From Liolophura sinensis (taxonomy: Eukaryota > Mollusca > Polyplacophora > Chitonida > Chitonidae): 64,000 bases of DNA. A program made the position numbers and the translations under genes. The notes beneath the pieces were generated by a model. The model did no database searches, was not told where the DNA came from, and was given only the letters and a program-made list of their open reading frames with translations. Shown piece by piece: positions 1 through 28,000 of this stretch (positions within the stretch are counted from its first letter, which is position 1; each line of letters begins with the position of its first letter). The stretch covers positions 21,835,788-21,899,787 of the forward strand of contig NC_088302.1 in NCBI RefSeq assembly GCF_032854445.1. Direction: 5' to 3'.

Positions 1-880
1 AACATTATGGCTATTTTACATGGCCAATTAGTGTAGACCAAACCAGACGTGTTGCTCACCACTAACATTGGCCTACTGGGGCGAGCAATGGCTACAGGGT
101 AACCATTGAAGCTGTATCACATGGAAAACTGAAATAAAACAAACCGGACAAACTGCTCACCATGAACACTGGCCTGTTAAGGAGAGCAATGACTACAGGG
201 CTCACCTAGAAATTTGGCCTGATTGGGTGAGCAATGACTACCTGGCAATTGCTGTAGCTATATTACATGGCAAACCAGTTTGGGTCAAATCTGATACACT
301 GCTCACTATGAGCATTAGCCTGTTAGGGTGAGGAATGGCTACTTGGCAATTGCTGTAGCTGTAGTACATGGTAAACTAGTGTAGGCCAAAACCAGACGTA
401 ATGCTCACCTTGAACTTTGGTATGATTGGGTGAACAATGGCTACAGGGTACTGCAGCTATATCACATGGAAAAAAAGTGTAGGCCAACTACTGCGGCTAC
501 ATTCTGTGGCGAAATAGTGTAGGCCAAAGACATATTTCTCACCATGAACATTGGCCTGTTAGGGTGAGCAACTACTGTAGCTATATTACATTACAAACTA
601 GAGTAGGTCAAAACCAGACGTAGTGCTCACCTTGAACATTGGCTTGTTGGAGCAAGCAATGGGTACATGATAGCTACTGTAACTATATTACATGGAAAAC
701 TAGTGTAGGCCAAACCAGACGTAGTGCTCGCCTAGAATTCTGGCCTGATTGGGTGGGCAATGGTTACAGGGCAACTACTGCAGTTATATCTCATGGCGAA
801 CTAGTGCAGGCTAAACCAGGCATACTGCTCACAATGAACATGTTATGGTGAGAAATGGCTACCTCGCCGGGGACTTCGCC
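1..880. repeat. Tandem array of ~100-bp monomers related to the adjacent CEMIP-like exon end
   Basis: About nine diverged copies of a monomer of roughly 100 bp. Recurring landmarks are GCTCACC followed by a short variable segment, GCCTGATTGGGTGAGCAATG and CTACAGGGTAA, seen near positions 55-100, 153-200, 200-245, 300-345, 402-447, 536-570, 624-665, 724-770 and 826-865. Read on the minus strand, the landmark block matches the 3' end of the CEMIP-like exon at 982-1216, including its GTGAGT-type donor, at roughly 38 of 48 positions. Several copies still read PCSHCSPN or a close variant; others carry stops, for example the copy near 60-100. Most likely decaying tandem duplications of the exon end plus intron. 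Confidence 0.7.
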
Positions 881-981
881 AGCATATAGTTCATGCAGGC
901 GACTGGCGCCTAACCAATCGATCTCTCACTAGTTCTCAAAACCCTTAAAAAGGCGTAAGCTACATGAGGCATACAACTCAC

Positions 982-1216
982 CCTGAATCTTGACTTGATT
1001 TGGTGAGCAATGACTGCACGGTACGGTGATAAACTCTTCGGCATGATGCATGTCGTTGTCTGTGCTGCTGATGATTAGCCTATCGCCAACTTCCCATGAA
1101 GTGACGTCATCGGCTAAAGTGATAGTGTTCTCGTGCTGGCCTACAATCATCCAGTAGTATATATCATACTGACCATTAACCGTTATTTGATTGACGATAT
1201 GATAAAAAGGTATCAA
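982..1216 (-). CDS. CEMIP/TMEM2-like exon (leftmost visible coding exon)
   Basis: The minus-strand reading contains DDVTSWEVGDRLIISSTD, MHHAEEF and PCSHCSPNQVKIQG. These match the segment of CEMIP/TMEM2 (cell-migration-inducing hyaluronan-binding family) that precedes the parallel beta-helix region. The exon ends in a consensus donor (CAGG/GTGAGT, last base 982). The right boundary is uncertain: an acceptor after TGTAACAG (exon from 1216) gives phase 0, while an acceptor after GATTGTAG, about 60 bases further in, would give the phase needed to follow a phase-1 exon. Later exons lie beyond the left edge of the window. Confidence 0.75.
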
Positions 1217-3629: not shown

Positions 3630-3888
3630 GGGGGCCTCCGTGGCTCAGTCGGTTAGCGCGCTAGCGCAGCGTAATGACCCGGTAGCTTCTCACCAATGCG
3701 GTCGCTGTGAGTTCAAGCTGGCTTCCTCTCCGGTCGTACGTGGGAAGGCCTGCTAGCAACCTGCGGATGGTCGTGGGCTCATCCGGGCTCTGCCCGGTTT
3801 CCTCCCACCATAATGCTGGCCGCTGTTGTATAAGTGAAATATTCTTGAGTACGGCGTAAAACACCAATCAAATAAATAAATAAATAAA
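3630..3888 (+). repeat. SINE family 1, essentially full-length copy
   Basis: Starts with the tRNA-like head GGGGCCTCCGTGGCTCAGT and a box-A-like CTCAGTCGGTTAGCGCG. It continues through CACCAATGCGGTCGCTGTGA, TTCAAGCTGGCTTCCTCTCC, GTACGTGGGAAGG, CTGCGGATGGTCGTGGG, CCACCATAATGCTGGCCGC, GTATAAGTGAAATATTC and TTGAGTACGGCGTAAAACAC to an AAAT tail. The RNA polymerase III box-A-like head and A-rich 3' tail identify it as a tRNA-derived SINE. It lies in an intron of the CEMIP-like gene in the opposite orientation. Confidence 0.93.
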
Positions 3889-4088
3889 TGTGAGTATGCT
3901 ATATTGTCTCTTAACGAAAATGTGGATATTTATAACCTGGTACCGGCATAGTCAAAACTTATATAGCAAGGAGTAATGAGGGACGTGTGATAAAACCTAT
4001 GTGTTTCATGAAAACTCCTGGAAAGATTAGTTAAACAAATATGTTGTCCCTGATATAAAACAAATCAGTCAGATAAATCAATACTCAC

Positions 4089-4403: not shown

Positions 4404-4763
4404 TTAATTAATAACGTGCGTGTAACTCAAGGAGGGCCTCGTGGAATTGGTCCTTAGATAGGCTCTTAGGATTTGCTGTCTTGAAGCAAAATGTTGCCAC
4501 TTCGTAGGTCTTGAAAGTACATTAATATCAGATGTGTTCGCCTGGAAGTCAAGGAATCTGGTTTCAAAATAGTACTTGTTGCTGCGCCGCTTGTCGCTCA
4601 TCACTGCGAGGTTAGAGCAAGGAAACAGTACAGGTTGGCCCAGCGTCAGTGTAATGTGACTGGGTGGAATGCCATGTCTGGTGTCTACGACATGGTACTT
4701 CAGTGGCGGAAGCACATTGGTTGCATGAACTCGCGCTGCCACAAGAAGACACCAAACAAACAC
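4404..4763 (-). CDS. Unassigned open reading frame with signal-peptide-like start and transthyretin/HIUase-like motif
   Basis: 119-codon minus-strand frame. It begins MFVWCLLVAARVHAT, a short hydrophobic start that could be a signal peptide. It then reads KYHVVDTRHGIPPSHITLTL, and later SDKRRSNKYYFETRF. The HVxDTxxGxP pattern recalls the N-terminal signature of 5-hydroxyisourate hydrolase/transthyretin proteins, and YYFET could parallel their YKxxFET strand, but the spacing (about 45 residues) is shorter than usual and the rest is not recognisable. A GTGTCTTCTTGTGGCAG acceptor near the start suggests it could be an internal exon instead. Possible pseudogene or chance frame. Confidence 0.25.
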   Translation of the reverse strand: MFVWCLLVAARVHATNVLPPLKYHVVDTRHGIPPSHITLTLGQPVLFPCSNLAVMSDKRRSNKYYFETRFLDFQANTSDINVLSRPTKWQHFASRQQILRAYLRTNSTRPSLSYTHVIN

Positions 4764-5098: not shown

Positions 5099-7496
5099 AA
5101 TATAGAATTCTGAGGTTTGTCCTGAAAAGCTTCAGTATCATAACAGTGTTAAAATCTATGAATATTAGAGCTGGGAAGAGAAATTGTGAATTGCGTGAAA
5201 ATGTAGCTAACCCTACATGGCTTTGTTAAGTTTGAAAAGTGACTGTATTAATATTAAAGTAGATTGGAAGCTTTTGTGACTGATGCCCAATTGGTGAGAT
5301 ATTATCAGCTCAGAGACCAGTTCATTTCATAGAAAGATATTTAGAATATTCCTGAATTTTCTGAACATTAGTTGAGTATTCTCCAGTTATGAAAAAAGGT
5401 GATGATTCTTAAACCACGGTAGTAACTGAATTGTGAAAGTGTTACCTCAGAGATTTGCACAGGGTAACTATGGAAAGATAAGCTGAATTGTATTTATTTA
5501 AGTATTTATTTATTTATTTTATCACACTGATTTTTCACATAATACGTCGTCAAATTGTAGAGTTTTGAGTATTGGACTATAACGAATAAGAATTGTTGAT
5601 GTACATTAGGAAGTTTTATGTACCATTTAAAAACAACTACTGGCCTCAAAACATGTACCTTAAATCAACTTTGAACAGTTTGACATCAAACAGACTTTGA
5701 AAAGTTTGAAATACTTACCGGTCACACCTTCACAACCAATGAACTGTATATTGAGCCATATCAAAAAGTAACTGATAACTGAAGGACTGCAGTACGATCT
5801 CCAGTACATCTTTGACATGATATCGTACAGGGCTCAGTGTCTTCACATCTTTCCATCTAACAATGTTTTGGCAAGTAAAAGCCAAACAGATCTGTTTATG
5901 GTGTGACATTCCTGTATCAGAAATGACCAAAACATATCCTGCTATATAAAGCGGTATCCAATTTAGCAATAACTTAAGGAGCGAGTTAGGAAAATGTCTA
6001 CAGTTGTGGTTGGAAAGTCATTTCACACCTTAAGTTTAAATGTGGTAATACCTTGTTTATGACAAGCTCACGACTAGTTGTTGTCAAATTAGCGGTGTGG
6101 ATACCGCTACTTAAACCAGCATCCATAGCTCGAATAACTGTGGATTAGACCTAAACGAGGGATTTGTTTGGCGTGGATGATGGGGACTGCGTACAGGCGA
6201 ATCCGGTGGTTTGCGTAACGACCTCGGTTTTGTTGTCACAAGACCGCTCACGTGACTCCATGACACCTAGCTACGACAAATCTTTATGGGTACATCCTAA
6301 TATAGGGACTGGACAAGTATAGCGAGCAAACGAAAAACCCTGCTTGCGGGCTGTTAACGCTTGGTTGTCTGCTAGCTTAAACGTGTTCGCTCGATCGATT
6401 TCATCTGTTACCTGTCGTATATATGCTTAGTACAATGTTTTCCCATCTCCATCGCTAAAGATGCATATATAGACCCGGTTGGAATTCCTAAAACTTTTTA
6501 AAATACAATTATAACGTCTATATCCTTTGATTATAAGGGTTTTTGCTTTCCTCTACCGGTCGTTACCTGGACCTTGGTCAATGGAGAACCAGGTTCGAAT
6601 CCAGTTATTCCTGCGTCGTGACGTTCTGACGTGGTCTCTGTCTGGTTTCCTCTATTCACAAAAAAAAAAATCCTCCGCCATACAATTAAACATCAGCTAA
6701 ATCAATAAGTCATTTAATCAATACTAATTATAAAAATATGATTTCTATTCTTTCACCTTCTTGTATACGGTTATTTGACTCTACAAGGTGCTTGTACATC
6801 TTGTCAAGGAAAATAAGAGTTTACCATGGAAAGCGTAACATTGCCGCTCGTCGTTACCTTTTTTGTTGAGGGGATCAGTCACATCAGTGTGTAACAAAAC
6901 AGTCTAGCAATTAAGAACAGAAATATACGACAGGATGGCCTGTAGGTTAATCGTATGTAAAATGTTACTAGCTAAATTTCACTGTTTACCCCACGGAAAA
7001 ATATACTCTTACGCAATTTAATCACAGGCTTATAGTACAACGTAATATGCTAAGATCAACGAGCGACATTTAGCATCCCTGTGAGATAAAAAAAAAACAG
7101 GGAATATATTTATGTATATTATGTATTCTGTCAGGCGTGTCAAGGCATATCTCTCCATGCTGGCAGCCTACATTTTTCTGATTGAGCCTCTTAAAGAGAT
7201 TGTTGAAGGCTGTAGTTTTGAGGGTTGATCATCCCTGAGAATGTCATTGTGGCAGCCATACTGATGTCTTTGAGAAACGACTAGTTTTTGGTGAGTTTTA
7301 GTGCTCGAGCTTATATATTCTGTAAACAACGCTGTAATGTGAAAAAGACGTTTGCGACAGACAACTGGTAACGAAGATGGCAATTATACAAGTAGTATAA
7401 TTTTAGCATTTATTGGGAAGCACTGACTACCCGGTCAACCTCGTGCATGGCGGATCAAATCTGTGTGTACATGGTGACTTGTCTGATGAACCGTGC
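5099..7496. other. Intergenic, no gene recognised
   Basis: AT-rich unique-looking sequence. A degraded SINE-tail-like TATTTATTTATT stretch lies near 5486-5520, and a possible box-B-like GGTTCGAATCC at about 6591 belongs to no recognisable tRNA. A minus-strand frame at 5730-5969 has no identifiable domain. Confidence 0.5.
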
Positions 7497-14779: not shown

Positions 14780-15810
14780 CATTGTGTATCGTCCTTTCAC
14801 ACGTCATCAGTGTACTGTGCTGTCAAGTGTCCTTACTTGAACGTCAAAACTATACTGTGTTGTAATGTAATTTCACTTGAACATCTTAGCTATGCAGCCT
14901 CTCTGGAACATCATACCCATACTATATTGCCATGCGACCAGCCCCAATAGCACAACTGGTAGAGTGTCCGTTTCGAGAGGAGGTAGAGCCAATGTCAATC
15001 CTGGGTTGAGTACCAACTAACTTCTTCGCTTGGCGCTCAGAATGAAGGGGATAGTGCAAAGGCTAGTTGACCCGTGTAAAATGGCTCGGGCGGGGGCGCC
15101 TTACTGGCCTTCGGTAAATCGACTCAACGAAGCAGCACTAGATAAAAGAATGGCAGAAATCCGTCCTGCAATGTTCAAGGAGACACAATACATGCACTCT
15201 GAGGACTCCTTCGTGGTCATATGACTGAAAAATTGTTAAGTACGATGTTAAACCCCAATCACTGACTCACTAATTATATTAATATGTAAAGTCACTGGAA
15301 CATAATAATTCTACTGTAACCTCACGGGAGCATAATAACTATATCATATTGCCATGTAGCCTCACAGGAGCATAATAACTAGATCATATTGCCATGTAGC
15401 CTCACGGGAGCATAATAACTATATCATATTGCCATGTAGCCTCACGGGAGCATAATAACTGCACAGTCTTGTCATGTAACCTCACGGGAGCTTAATAACT
15501 ATACCATATTGTTATGTAGCCTCACGGGAGCATAATAACTGTACTGTCTTGTCGTGTAACCTCACGGGAGCTTAATAACTATACCATATTGTCATGTAGC
15601 CTCACGTGAGCATAATAACTGTACAGTTTTGTCACGTAATATTACGGGAGTATAATAACTATACCATATTGCCATGTATCCTCACGGGAACATCATAATT
15701 GTACTGTCTTGTCATGTAATCTCACTGGAACATCATAACTATACCATATTGCCATGTAACTTCCCTGGAACGTCGTAACTATACCATGCTGTCCTGAAAT
15801 CCCACTGATC
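14780..15810. repeat. 40-bp minisatellite, interrupted by a SINE
   Basis: From about 15285 to 15810 the 40-bp unit CATAATAACTATATCATATT + GCCATGTAGCCTCACGGGAG repeats about 12 times with substitutions. Diverged units are recognisable before the SINE family 2 insertion, for example ATTTCACTTGAACATCTTAG and CATACCCATACTATATTGCC at about 14870-14935. The array therefore predates that insertion. Confidence 0.85.
14936..15273 (+). repeat. SINE family 2, second copy
   Basis: Same structure as the copy at 12982-13311: CCCCAATAGCACAACTGGTA head, GAAGGGGATAGTGCAAAGGC, ATGGCTCGGGCGGGGG, AGCAGCACTAGATAAAAGAA, GCAGAAATCCGTCCTGCAA, then TTGTTAAGTACGATG with TTAAACCCCAATCACTGACT. It is inserted within the 40-bp minisatellite. 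Confidence 0.92.
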
Positions 15811-16919
15811 ATTACTGGATCTTACTAGGTCAGTGGAGTAAAATTACTGTAGAGGAAATTACAGCTCCCGGTGAAGTTACACCTTCCATGCAGGGAAATT
15901 AAAACTCCCGACGAGTTCCGAGTCGGACTATACCTATAAGACATTAAAATAGGCAATCACGGTATACATGTACTTTATTGCCTTGGGGATGAGCCTGAAG
16001 AACTAGTCGGCGGCGATGTCAGTGCTGTGCCTGGGCTCTATCACCATGTATAGTCTTTTACATGGCGGGCCAGCGAGATAGTACTGTAGCAAACGAAAAT
16101 TCTCAATGGCCTAAGCATCACGCAAAAGATCGAAATCTACTTAAACGCAGGCCGCTAATTAAGTGAATGGCCTAAGTTTTAAAGATAAAATGTGATACAT
16201 CAGGCCGACAGGCTGACCAACCGACCGAAGGACTGACCGACAGGCAGACAGAATGCGGTCTGACCGACAGGCAGACAGAATAACTTTTAGAGGTGCTTGT
16301 CTTATAGCTGAAAATGTTGTCGGTATGACCTCGGCCAACTTGGAGGTGAAACCTTCGTGATATGGCAGAGAAAACGTTGCATGTAGCGTTAAATTCAGCG
16401 TTAATAAACAGACACTCTCATCTAGTAACCCTGCAGCGGAGAGCGTTAATCAAATGAACGGAAAAGTAAATAAATCATAGCTGCACACGTGTCCAGACAA
16501 TTGTTGTTTATACCAGGCGAATATTGATCAGTTACCAGCAGTTGTGTTGTTGGATGAACAGGTGTTGCATATAAGCCTAGAACCAATGGTGTGTATGCGA
16601 TGAGCGAAACATGAGCTGGTTATTCTACATGAAATATCGCACGGATTGGTACATGCATAACTGAATGAATGCTTATATGGCTTAGCGCCATTTCGACAAT
16701 ATTTCAGTCATATCGTGGCGCTGGCGTGTCATTGAAAGTCGGTGAGCTGCTCAACTTTTCTCTTGCGCAGCTGTCTGGGCAAAAGATGTGTCGTTTCTAT
16801 AATGAGGTGAGATTACCATCGGTTGCGTTCGCAAATTTCCCTGCATGGACCCGGTTTCCCATCTGGAACAGGGCGTTAGTTTTGTGTTGGAATTTGTAAA
16901 TGTTTTACACCGGAGCTTA
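15811..16919. other. Intergenic, no gene; short GACAGGCAGACAGAAT direct repeat
   Basis: Near 16203-16285 the segment CTGACCGACAGGCAGACAGA occurs twice among related shorter units. Nothing else is supported. Confidence 0.5.
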
Positions 16920-22000: not shown

Positions 22001-25000
22001 TCCCACAATGTGACGGCATGACAGGTTTACCTTACCTGTCACAAGGAAATCACATATCGGACATAGAGAAATATACTAAATATAAATATAGACATTTAGC
22101 AGGAAACCGAAAATATACTAAATATAAATATAAACATTTAACATGAATCCAAAGAATAAAGAACATATCGATTTTGTTTTGATACAGGCTTCAAATAGAT
22201 CACACCGCTCTGACATATCAGGATATTGTCGAAATGGTGTTTTTAAATGGGTCCCCGAAGGTCCGGAAGTTTGCCGTTATCGGTCGGTGAGTATGCGTAT
22301 GCGTATGCTTAGGGTTTTACGTCATGCTTAACAATTAACGACGAGGAATCGTTAGGTGTGTGTACATGTAATCGGTCGTTAACTTTTAATGAGATCACAA
22401 CCAGACTAAAATTCTGATACTAATATGGCTAACCGCTTGCTGCCGTTGCCATTGGCCTTTACTGCTGCAATTAGTCAATAGTTATTTATTTATAACCACA
22501 GGTTGAAATGCCATATATATAAAGATTTGTCTTACGACATCAATAATACTGTTATTGTGTCAAAAAGTGCTACATCAATGAACATACGGACTAACCGTCG
22601 CTGGTATCACAAGATTCGTATATTTAACTTTGCTCTAAAAAAAGCACTGTTATACTAAGTGAAAAAAACTGCACTCTGGAAAAACGTTAAGTTATTTCTA
22701 ATCTAAAAACACCATTTATGAGTTTGCAAATGTTGTTAATGACTAGTTTAATGGGAAAAAAAACGATATTTTAATTTGCAACAACGCTAACGCAACCAAC
22801 TATGGAGGAAGCGAATTTAGAATGGCCAGTTTCCCTCCAACACCCCAGACATTGCACATGACCTGTTTCCCGACAACTCTTCAAGCACCAATCAACTGGC
22901 TCCTTTAGCAGACAGAAATCAACACGATTAATCCACACCTGTTACCATGCACAGATCATCGATATCAGACTTACCGTAATAACAATATTTAATTGCTGTT
23001 TCTTGAACAGTTGGTGAATATAATATGGAAGTTAAATATAAACAAATTAAAGGAAAACGCCAACTTTAAATAATATGCCCATATTCTGAAGGATGTTCAC
23101 GTGTGATTTTTATTTATTTTTTTCATAGCATTTAGGCTATGTAGTGGTTTTTTAGTGCCATTTTGAACAGATTGATGCAGGGGGATGTCTTGGATTCTTT
23201 TTAGTTGCTAACCAGACTTTAAGTGTTATTTTTCCACTCTGAGCACATTAAGTACTGCATGAAGACGTGTAAGTTGAACACAGTGTAATGGAGTTTCGAA
23301 TTCGAACTCAGAAATTTTAAACAACTATTTTTGAGCACATTACTATAACATGGGCGTTTGCAAAAAAGTTCCACTGCAAGTAATTTAATCTGAACGAACG
23401 ATGGAGACAATTGAGGAGCTGTACGTTCGTGAACTTAAGAAGTTCTTACAGGGAAAAAACGTTCTTAAAGAATGAATGCTTCTGGTTTCACGCCGTTTTT
23501 CTTAAAGAAGTGTCATTTGAGTCTTTGGAACACGGCGAAACAGGTGATCAGTAAATTGAAATCAGCAAATGTTACCTAACATTTTTCACAAGTCATATTA
23601 TACAGTAGGACTGTTTTTACAAAAAAGGACGAAAATTCGAAACTCCCTTATACTGTAGCATTCAGAGCATATTTAGCAATGAAAAAAAAAATCGATGACA
23701 TCACTGTGCTTCATCAGCCTGTTCAATATGGTCAAAAACAGTCAACCGAGGGACCTTTATTTGCGTTTTATCCATTGTGAAAAAAATTGCATAAATTTCA
23801 CAAAATGCGACGGCGGCCAGTATTATGGTGGGAGAAAACCGGGCAGAGCCCGGGGGAAGCCAGCATGAGCTGGACTTGAACTCAAAGCGACCGCATTGGT
23901 GAAAGCTTTATAGAAATAGCTATAACGTAGACCCTGTTTACAATCCGTAGATACACGAATTGGTAAACTTTTAGAACTGATGCAGTGCGATAAATAACCA
24001 AACGAATCTTTTTGGAGAGGCTTCACACAATCTTTGGTTGGTTAGAACTAACTATACAGTACAGTAGTGAAGTAAAGGATAAAGACCTTTCGGAACGGTC
24101 AATCAAGAACACGCATTTGACCAGTCATAATCAGCATTTTAGCAAGTAGGTCAACCGGATGTCCCACACATTGGTTCCGAATGTTCAAATGTTTTGTGAC
24201 GTCACAAAAGCTTAAAATGTGAAATGGAGTGAAAAGTAACGTTATCATGAGAAGGGGTGGTGGGATATTGGCTGTGGTGTATCCGTCCATAGCGCCGCAC
24301 GCTGCTGTTTTAAGAATAAGGCCCAGCTGATATTATAATAAATAAAGCTTTATAGTAATAGCTTTTTTAAAATGCAACATTTTGTACTTTTACAGCCGAA
24401 CATTTGAGTCATGCTGAGGAAATAGTCACTCATGTTAGATCCATTAAAATTATGGATTAAACATTTTATGTCTTTGTAATGTTAGAGTATGCCTTTTTCC
24501 TGTCCTTGTAGATCAGCCTCCATCTTTTTCTCGGCACTGCTACAGTTCGGTGTTTGTGCATTTTTCTTCGTGGTGGTCGGTGATGGTGTCAAGCAGGTAA
24601 GATATGACGTTATTCTACTCAGGAATGAGGGACCTTTCCCGCGTAAAGTGATGGAGTACCTTTCCCGCGTAAAGTGATGGAGAACCTTTCCTGAGTAAAG
24701 TAATGGAGAACCTTTCCCGTGTAAAGTAATGGAGAACCTTTCCCGTGTAAAGTTATGGAGAACCTTTCCCGCGTAAAGTTATGGAGAATCTTTCCCGTGT
24801 AAAGTGATGGACAACCTTCCCCGAGTAAAGTGATGGCGGACCTTTCCCGCGTAGAGTAATGGAAAATTTTTCTTATGTAAAGTGATGGAGAACCTTCCCT
24901 TAGTAAAGAAATGGACAACCTTTCCCAAGTAAAGTAACAGAGAACCTTTCCCGCGTAAAATAATGAAGAATCTTTCTCGAGTAATGTAGAACAGAATCCT

Positions 25001-28000
25001 TCTCTCGTAAAGTCACAGAAAACCATTTCCGCGTAAAATAACAGAGAACCTTTTCCACATAAAGTAGTGGAGAACCTTTCCAGCGTAAAGTTATGGAGAA
25101 CCTTTCCAGCGTAAGGTAATGGATAACCTTTCCCGCGTAAAGTAATGAAGAACATGTCCCGAGTAAAGTGATAGAGAATCTTTTCCACTTAAAGTAATAG
25201 AGAACCTTTCCCAAGTAAAGAAATGGACAAACTTTTTCCGCGTAAAAACCTTTCCCGCGTAAGGTAGTGGGGAACCTTTCCAGTGTAAAGGAATGGCGAG
25301 AAGGAGGGGGGGGGGAGGGTCCAGGGTAAAGTAATGAAAAAAATTTCCCGTGTAAAGTTATGGAGAACCTTTTCCAAGTAAAGTAATGGAAAACCTTTCC
25401 GGCAGTAAAGTAATGAAGAACCTTTCCTGAGTAATGTAGAGCAGAATCTTTCCCGCGTAAAGTAAAGGAGAACCTTTCCCAAGTAAAGTGATGGAAAACC
25501 TTTCCCAAGTAAAGTGATGGAAAACCTTTCCCGAGTAAAGTGATAGAAAACCTTTCCACGTAAAGTAATGGAAAACCTTTCCCGGGTAAAGTGATAGAAA
25601 ACCTTTCCACGTAAAGTAATGGAAAATCTTTCTCCAGTAAAGTAATAGAAAACCTTTCCCCTTTTGAAGTATGGACAACTTTTCCCGCCTGATGTTATGG
25701 GAAGCCTTTCCTGCGTAAGGTAATGGGGAACTTTTCCAGCGTATTGTAATGGAGAACCTTTCCCGCGTAAAGCAATGAAAAACCTTTCCCTTCTGAAGTA
25801 ATGGGGAGACTTTCCTATGTAAGATAATGGAGAACTTTTCCGCCTAAAGCAATTCGGGTCAAAGCTGTGTGGTGTATTGTTAATTATTACTTCAGCGATA
25901 ATGATTAGTGGCCAAACTGGTAACGCAGTACTTACATTTATGTATTACAAGAGAGCATTGGTCAATCCGTCTTGAAACAGCGATGAAATTGCACGAGAAA
26001 AGGTATACTCCAATACGAGGGTGGCCCATATAAAATCATAAGTATGTGTTATCGTGTTATCATTCAAAATCGGTAATAAAATTTCTAAAATTTATAAAGT
26101 GCTTCGCATTGTAGCTTTTTCAAAATTCAGAATCATTCTAACATGATATAGAATATAGGTACAAGGCTGTTCCTTACTGAAAAGACCAATAATGGTAATT
26201 ACAGAAAATTTTACTAGTTTAGCGAATACTATTTTTTTTGCCGAAAAGCTTTAATATTGCCTGTTTAATACGCTTACTGCAATATAGTTAATTGCACTTT
26301 TAAACACATCCACTGTGATCATTTGTTTATCTTTCATCGGTTTTTTTGTTGTTCAGTTGTTTGATGACTTTCTGGACATACATTTGGACGTCCGTATTTA
26401 CATGGTTGTGATGTTGGTCTTGTTGATTGGACCAGCCTTCGTCAAGAGACTCGACATCCTGGCTATATTCTCAGGGATAGCTAATGTTTTATTTGGTACC
26501 TGTTTGCTGATTGCCCTAGGATATATTGTGCCGGGTCTTCCACCAATCACTACCCGCCCTGCATACACTTCCGTCTGGTCAGTTCCAATGTTTCTTGGAC
26601 AAGCCCTGATGGCTTTGGAGGGAATTGCCGTGGTAAGTTGGCATTCTTTTTACTGTAGTTTTATAAGTGGGTATCACCCGCTTTTGGAGTCCTAGTCAAG
26701 CTCATGCTTTCTTACCTCACCAGTCATACGTGGGAAGGTCTTCCAGCTACCCGTGTATGGTCATGGGTTTCCCTGTCCTCCCACTCTAATATTGGCCGCT
26801 GTCGTGCAAGCCAAATTTTCTTGGGTATGGCGTAAAACATCAATCAAATAAGAAAATAAATAGATATTGCAGGTTTTGTTTTTTTTTCTCAGTTCAGATA
26901 GTTAGGCGTATAGTTAGGCATGTATATGGCCTGAAATGTTGATTCAGCTTTGTTAAATGAAATGTTTGTTAGTGTTCGATGTAACCTGAATATAAGTAAA
27001 CTGAGTAAGGAAGTGTACTGTAAACTAAATGTATTCTCAATGTATTATGTATTTACAAAAATACAAAATCTGTATTGATAAGATACAGAGTACGACAAAG
27101 AATGGCAGGTCCGTTTCGATAGTGTGACGATCTCTCCTTGACGCTTGATGGAAATTAGGTTATTTGATGTGCATGATATAAAATATAAAGCTCAACACCA
27201 GTGAGAGTACACGACGACAGAGTGATAGTGGGCAAATATTCACACATATTATTTATTTATTTCATTGGTGTTTTACGCCGTGCTCAAGAAAATTTTACTT
27301 ATACGACGGCCGCCAACAATGCGGTGGGGGGGGGGGGGGGGGGGGGGAAACCGGTGTCACACGTATCACCAGTGAAATCTGCATGCCCTCTTGTCAACTG
27401 ACCTAAGTCAAAGTTTTATTCGTATATATTTTTATTGTATATATTTAAAAAGTAGCAACGTACACGCTCCTCTGGTACCATAACTTAATCAGAATTAGGT
27501 AGAATTTTTTAATTACTGTATTGCCACTAAATTTTCCTCTTATATGTCGAAATATGTTGTGATCGTTATTCAGATAGTTCCTGTCCAGAATAAAATGAAG
27601 AAACCGGAGAAATTCTCAAGCATTTTCGGTGTGCTAAATTTGGGCTTGTCATTTGTCATATGTCTTATGACCGTGCTCGGTTGCCTTGGCTACTGGAAAT
27701 ATGGACTGGACACAAAGACGAATATTTTGTTGAATTTACCCGCTGACCAATGGTAAGGGTAATGTGTAGATCGAACGGGAAACTGTACTCAATTATGGCC
27801 CATGACCAAGATAGACAGGCGCCATCTAGATATTGTCTAAGGGAAGATAATTCGCTGATCAGCCCAATACTCTTTGCTGAGGTCTAGAGACATTAATGTT
27901 CCCTACTACGCATGGCAGTAGGAAACCATGTGCAGAACATACAGTAGCAGAACTCAACTGGTTTCCCAATACAACTATGTGATGGGAAGCCTTGAGAGCT

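Follow-up and report, generated by a model that had tools for sequence, protein, structure and literature searches.

A boundary-spanning tandem array in a CEMIP/TMEM2-like gene of the chiton Liolophura sinensis, probably a minisatellite founded by an exon end

The start of the window (the whole 64,000-nucleotide stretch of Liolophura sinensis DNA analysed here, G000:C8:21835788-21899787) carries a tandem array that is very probably a boundary-spanning minisatellite, or 'mirage', i.e. a neutral repeat in which the end of a coding exon has been duplicated into the intron. According to the proposed mechanism, a segment of about 100 bases that comprised the final ~42-64 exon bases, the donor and ~30-37 intron bases would have been duplicated in tandem and would then have expanded within the intron. 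The copy joined to the exon body would have stayed the exon end, and therefore the spliced mRNA would be unchanged, while the other copies would have become intron and decayed. As long as the site that touches the exon body is the one used, the mRNA would stay the same and further expansion would be free. The proximal donor is presumably the one in use, and the array itself is likely to be without function. Slippage and unequal exchange are the steps by which minisatellites expand, and one of the two has presumably acted here; unequal exchange fits because two block types alternate along the array (a reading by eye) and copies 7 and 8 are fused.

The minus strand at the start of the window lies inside a CEMIP/TMEM2-like (hyaluronidase-like) gene, as judged from a G8 domain in the exon upstream (PF10162, E=5e-21 in a profile search) together with family-typical downstream exons. 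For the exon ending at 982, phmmer gives a match to human TMEM2 (8c6i) with E=5e-11 that extends nearly to the last residue of the exon, the two sequences aligning at the exon end as ...EEFITVPCSHCSPNQVKIQ and EEFTLLPCSECSHFQVKVK. Its 5' end at 1216 is an earlier reader's figure, and the open frame starts at 1219. The next exon, L001:8203-8033, continues the protein, and a phase 1 junction between the two restores the conserved sequence. Paralogues on contigs C11 and C13 contain exons 44% and 43% identical to that of the window; both end at the homologous place and are followed by GTAAGT, and the exon chain of the window gene is shared with the C11 paralogue. Tandem Repeats Finder reported no tandem array at the homologous exon of either paralogue, and in the boundary test described below the homologous C13 boundary had a single weak match ~800 bases away. 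The coordinates of the features are collected in Table 1.

Table 1. Features of the array, its founder exon and comparable arrays elsewhere in the assembly; positions without a prefix are those of the window
Feature	Position	Strand	Remarks
CEMIP/TMEM2-like coding exon	982..1216	-	3' end at 982 is the exon part of the putative founder unit
5' splice site GTGAGT	976..981	-	predicted; 9.7 bits with a generic matrix
Ungapped match between exon end and array unit	953..1023	-	42 exon and 29 intron bases; array HMM
First in-frame stop on read-through of the exon	929..931	-	precedes all array copies
Tandem array	1..896	-	unit ~101 bp; nine copies above threshold, remnants at ~474-509 and ~1-23
Array copy 1	798..895	-	5-base insertion and 6-base deletion relative to the profile; donor GTGAGC at 832
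Array copy 2	697..796	-	GC replaces GT at 731
Array copy 3	594..695	-	donor at 630, score 10.5, above the real donor
Array copy 4	511..591	-	donor at 542
Array copy 5	373..469	-	spells PCSHCSPNHTKVQG; donor at 408, score 10.5
Array copy 6	271..371	-	donor at 306
Array copy 7	200..270	-	closest copy to the exon end by blastn (82% over 39 bases); donor at 205
Array copy 8	140..201	-	fused to copy 7; donor at 160
Array copy 9	25..124	-	donor at 59
C11 donor-side array, independent of the window's	L003:1270-1837		founder exon end near L003:2397
43-base C11 array	L006, joined C11 index 15322-15862		exon tail and GTATGT-like donor, 8 copies
Acceptor array of a kinase exon	L019:4057-4632 (G000:C3:13485000-13494450)

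Several features of this and other regions are recorded in passing. The donor region of the next exon (L001:8203-8033) is present as a two-copy duplication. SINE-like repeat copies lie in several introns (window ~1240-1440, ~1830-1990 and ~3660-3910), one of which has an (AAAT)n run after it at 1360-1432. Upstream of the CEMIP-like exons, the minus strand has an open frame at 4566-4763 that might be mistaken for a first exon; it resembles stretches on C13 (61% over 66 residues) and C11 (62% over 26 residues) and for that reason looks like a dispersed repeat. At 24622-25944 a 26-bp array carries overlapping minus-strand open frames, the longest of 264 codons, with a repeated GKVLHYFTRERFSITL-like motif. 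The region G000:C8:37880506-37891931 encodes eight haemocyanin beta-sandwich domains in a row, the arrangement of mollusc haemocyanin.

Tandem Repeats Finder delimits only part of the array (568-832, 101 bp), and an ungapped repeat search returns nine 48-base blocks, the ninth of which is the exon end. An HMM built from seven array units, with the exon excluded, was run with nhmmer over 1.7 kb; it recovered nine array copies (25-895) and, as a tenth match, the exon end at 1023-953, ungapped over 71 bases with 30.8 bits and E=1.4e-10. The envelope of this match, 1044-946, amounts to nearly a whole unit, so the exon end and the start of the intron are themselves a unit, and the array units thus appear, from homology and reading frame, to span the exon-intron boundary. 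The intron part matches less well than the exon part (12-17 of 30 positions, ungapped, in seven copies). The HMM bears out the claim of an earlier note that minus-strand monomers of about 100 bp match the exon end and its donor; the limits of 1-880 given there fall short of the ~896 that the array reaches, and the block of exon end plus donor stands but continues into the intron. The segment between the exon and copy 1 (~896-952; query 860-980) was not found elsewhere and may be a degenerate unit, and blastn detected no further copies in the 20 kb to the left of the window (L001/L002).

Splice consensus and low-complexity sequence could in principle produce a fortuitous resemblance, and GGTGAG is present in both exon and array. 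That account has a negligible chance of being right and is refuted by the profile scores: against a profile of the eight 48-base blocks the exon scores 38.7 bits, with 9.2 as the best of 223,842 other positions on both strands, and when the donor and everything 3' of it are omitted the exon still reaches 28.9, the background maximum then being 15.7, so the match goes beyond the common splice consensus. The earlier note had named a lack of similarity above background as evidence against its reading, and the opposite was found.

The direction of the duplication follows from the age and the distribution of the sequence. The exon end is old coding sequence, common to human TMEM2 and the two paralogues, and the array unit was found only at this locus, which together make the exon end the founder. 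This agrees with the earlier note, which had proposed that an exon end was duplicated locally along with the intron next to it and had regarded monomers scattered genome-wide as contrary evidence. In the 609 Mb assembly (609,464,459 bases in 632 contigs) neither a 305-base query nor a 31-base pattern allowing up to 3 mismatches recovered the unit outside this locus; these searches skip very common words and may miss diverged copies. The converse order, in which the array, as the repeat core of a mobile element or as a satellite, existed first and supplied the exon with its end, would account for the exon end behaving as one more array unit. It is scarcely credible, given that the exon end is shared with human TMEM2 and with paralogues that have no tandem array at that exon, and a dispersed element or satellite was rejected on account of the single locus, even if a diverged or very common sequence can escape the search.

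The sequence differences between exon and array are consistent with a founding exon end that went on coding. Nine of the 12 differences between the exon and the array consensus fall at third codon positions, which make up 14 of the 41 columns (one-sided p=0.005). Such an excess suggests that the exon lineage kept its protein while its sequence drifted, as expected under coding constraint since the founding; the corresponding comparison for the C11 array tested has no excess (6 of 13, p=0.22). For eight copies, the mean identity of exon to copy is 66% (59-73%) and that of copy to copy 70% (59-83%). Divergence among the copies is similar to their divergence from the exon; the array is therefore old and has seen no recent homogenisation. 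Within the array, third-position columns also vary more than the others (a mean of 11.2 differences per column versus 7.3 and 7.0, p=0.019), a pattern not expected of a purely neutral array; it would be explained by repeated seeding from the exon, by conversion with the exon, or by chance. The C11 array has no such internal excess (p=0.34).

Translated in the frame of the exon, four of eight copies are open to the donor (blocks 192, 395, 617 and 718) and four contain a stop, which lies at one and the same codon in blocks 147, 293 and 529 and at the next in block 46; the ninth copy, with an internal deletion, was left out of this set. The earlier note's description of some copies as open and PCSHCSPN-like and others as interrupted was thus accurate. 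The shared position of three stops suggests that a stop-bearing unit itself multiplied. The open copies with their PCSHCSPN-like ends, along with the concentration of array variation, to some extent, at third codon positions, might be taken as signs of alternative small exons that swap the exon end in the manner of Dscam. This reading is very improbable and was rejected because of the stops in the other four translated copies. The copies do not have the properties of mutually exclusive exons, no clear acceptor is apparent upstream of the blocks (by eye, unscored), and since the exon's own end is retained, a copy would extend the exon rather than replace its end.

Splice signals are kept in many units of the array, but not in all: the donor position reads GT in eight of the nine copies and GC in one. 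On a generic matrix, which gives a rough guide only, the real donor scores 9.7; the copies range from 2.4 to 10.5, with two higher than the real donor and three at or below 5.5. The earlier note had spoken of decoy or alternative donors, and as a description of the anatomy the term holds; productive use as alternative donors is unlikely, to judge from the sequence, because the exon frame extended past its donor meets a stop at window position 931, ahead of any copy, and use of a decoy would yield a truncated reading frame. A regulated role is a rival reading. If U1 bound the copies and splicing occasionally used one of them, the exon would be extended into this stop and the resulting transcript would be destroyed, and such poison splicing would tune the amount of the enzyme; the retained GT dinucleotides, the two donors that outscore the real one on the generic matrix and the stop that read-through to any array donor brings in all accord with this scheme. 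We nevertheless regard it as improbable. The copies have diverged to ~70% identity, one donor has turned to GC and a third of them score poorly, and similar arrays occur at unrelated exons and also at acceptors, at a rate no higher than that at neighbouring points, as expected without selection. A further candidate, a hairpin in which CTCACC pairs with the donor GGTGAG, is predicted in the exon and in four of the five array copies modelled, but the six folding energies are ordinary with respect to shuffled sequences (z from -1.46 to 0.62), and it was dropped.

The neutral minisatellite reading gains breadth from four further arrays found by the boundary test: two at C11 exons and two at kinase exons (loci L019 and L015). 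With the window, the unit lengths are 101, 87, 43, ~80 and 37 bp, all within the minisatellite range, and in the first boundary count the four had 7 (C11 6902-7105), 8 (C11 15198-15368), 8 (L019) and 4 (L015) copies. The C11 exon 6902-7105 (VVGYDTLG...DPEECT) is homologous to the exon of the C8 gene that ends at L001:6155, and not to the exon of the window. Here the repeated stretch comprises the last 65 exon bases, the donor GTAAGT and 13 intron bases in all; there are seven repeats, one of them partial, and the array starts ~530 bases downstream of its founder. At C11 15198-15368 the first unit of a 43-base array is the exon's own last 43 bases. By eye, these units (L006) also contain a pyrimidine-rich AG.

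On the acceptor side, seven identical 19-base strings, CCTGTTTCAG/ATAGTTTCT (CCTGTTTCAGATAGTTTCT), stand ~80 bases apart at L019, which is the best single case of a row of identical sites; the last of the seven is apparently the real acceptor and leads into the exon without stops. The units at L015 are 37 bases long, CTGTAACAG/AGATGTTAAG. The upstream extensions translated, six at L019 and three at L015, contain stops. In each of the five cases the presumed real site is the first of the row at a donor and the last at an acceptor, which would be explained if a duplication across a donor keeps the original order at its upstream edge, and one across an acceptor at its downstream edge.

The frequency of such arrays was estimated from the 128 ends of 64 homology-supported exons, comprising 44 of the CEMIP family, chosen because of the finding in the window, and 20 of kinases, picked by a fixed rule regardless of it. 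The kinase exons are those of best E-value among matches covering no more than 130 model positions, drawn from the 131 of 835 candidates that were scored, and 9.4 kb was taken around each. A boundary counted as positive when three or more matches to the 140 bases around it lay on the same strand within 3 kb and crossed the boundary by at least 10 bases. Searching outside the arrays for a stretch similar to the unit gave none for 28 of 31 arrays with blastn, and none for 12 of 19 and 30 of 39 with profiles (the array sets overlap); this route overlooks boundary arrays whose last unit is the exon itself, and the boundary test was therefore used for the count.

Five of the 128 boundaries were positive, three of 64 donors and two of 64 acceptors, so both kinds of boundary are affected in this genome; the exon ends counted are the ends of homology matches rather than mapped splice sites. 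The kinase exons alone gave two of 40 (95% interval 0.6-17%). Eight of the 20 kinase matches contain a stop, which means that the match runs past the exon or is not intact, and the two positive ones are free of stops. Some of the C3 and C13 exons rest on E-values of 1e-4 to 2e-3, and the CEMIP-family entry C13 14691-14784, with a stop inside, is probably not an exon. A looser count finds some match at 13 boundaries: the five arrays, one two-copy case (the donor of the next exon of the window gene), and seven boundaries with one or two matches that are likely to be dispersed repeats. Control points 250-1000 bases away, outside known exons, were positive in 35 of 447 cases (Fisher p=0.17 against boundaries), although they are not independent, as one array can cover several, and may include unknown exons or intergenic DNA. 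Exon midpoints were positive in none of 64 (p=0.014 against the control points). Arrays thus fall on boundaries about as often as beside them, or somewhat less, and none was seen inside exons. Such rates are what a neutral process would give if only changes that leave the mRNA intact are kept; a preference for splice sites is not needed.

The balance of the evidence tips, if modestly, towards arrays of this kind lying at several per cent of exon boundaries in the genome, and hence in thousands of genes, as near-identical sites of which only the one touching the exon is productive. If this is true, the chiton offers a natural test bed for how the spliceosome chooses one among identical sites, and, with near-identical splice sites lined up next to the one productive site, splice-site choice could be studied in natural genes. 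It would also mean a standing source of intron lengthening, and possibly of intron gain, in a protostome. Mirages have been described as a feature of lancelets in the portions of the literature available to us (PMC3087553; PMC3902484), and their presence at unrelated chiton genes suggests that they originate wherever minisatellites are common; exon ends seem to have no protection against them, as the duplicate does not show in the mRNA.

No report of boundary arrays in a mollusc was found among titles and the beginnings of abstracts, a search that covered few subscription journals and is weak evidence of absence. As far as found, the chiton arrays belong to a known but little-studied kind with an ordinary mechanism, in a new phylum. 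In one known case a tandem repeat at an exon end consists of donor-bearing units of ~12 bases, and several of the donors are in use. The units in the window are by contrast ~101 bases long, and use of their donors is hypothetical. The closest counterparts come from amphioxus, where tandem repeats spanning exon-intron boundaries were given the name mirages in the sections of the paper at hand (PMC3087553). These sections describe globin mirages at both boundaries with units of 150-160 bp and Adh3 units of 10-72 bp, many with AG/GT, and RT-PCR of Adh3 and globin transcripts suggesting that regular splicing is undisturbed (PMC3087553); a later paper, likewise in excerpt, adds a PGBD5 mirage and cites Adh and troponin C (PMC3902484). 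As in the chiton, the described cases (Adh3, BflGb6, BflGb9, PGBD5) are minisatellite-like tandem duplications of donor or acceptor boundaries in which many units, though not all, keep AG/GT, with the authentic boundary, as we read these excerpts, at an edge of the array (PMC3087553; PMC3902484). Going by the same accounts, the chiton differs in its molluscan host and in unit length, 37-101 bp across the five arrays. The copies in the window are older, at 59-83% identity over the block compared with 81-100% for the units of BflGb6, and globin splicing was examined by RT-PCR in amphioxus whereas the chiton arrays are known here from sequence alone.

In human segmental-duplication genes, variable internal tandem repeats occur at exon-intron boundaries, as stated in the part of the study consulted (PMC2812944), and like the chiton arrays they are minisatellites across such boundaries; they change in copy number. 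The human repeats belong to recent primate paralogues and, by that partial account, alter the structure of exons or introns, as supported by RNA (PMC2812944), whereas the chiton mRNA is predicted to be unchanged. Minisatellites also lie in introns of an earthworm metallothionein gene; the available passages do not state that they span boundaries (PMC12783039). Finally, mirages have been proposed, in the same sections of the amphioxus paper, as a route to new introns, with citation of the Rogers model, in which duplication of an AG/GT segment leads to intron gain (PMC3087553). As outlined there, both involve tandem duplications carrying splice signals, but the chiton array lengthens an existing intron rather than forming a new one.
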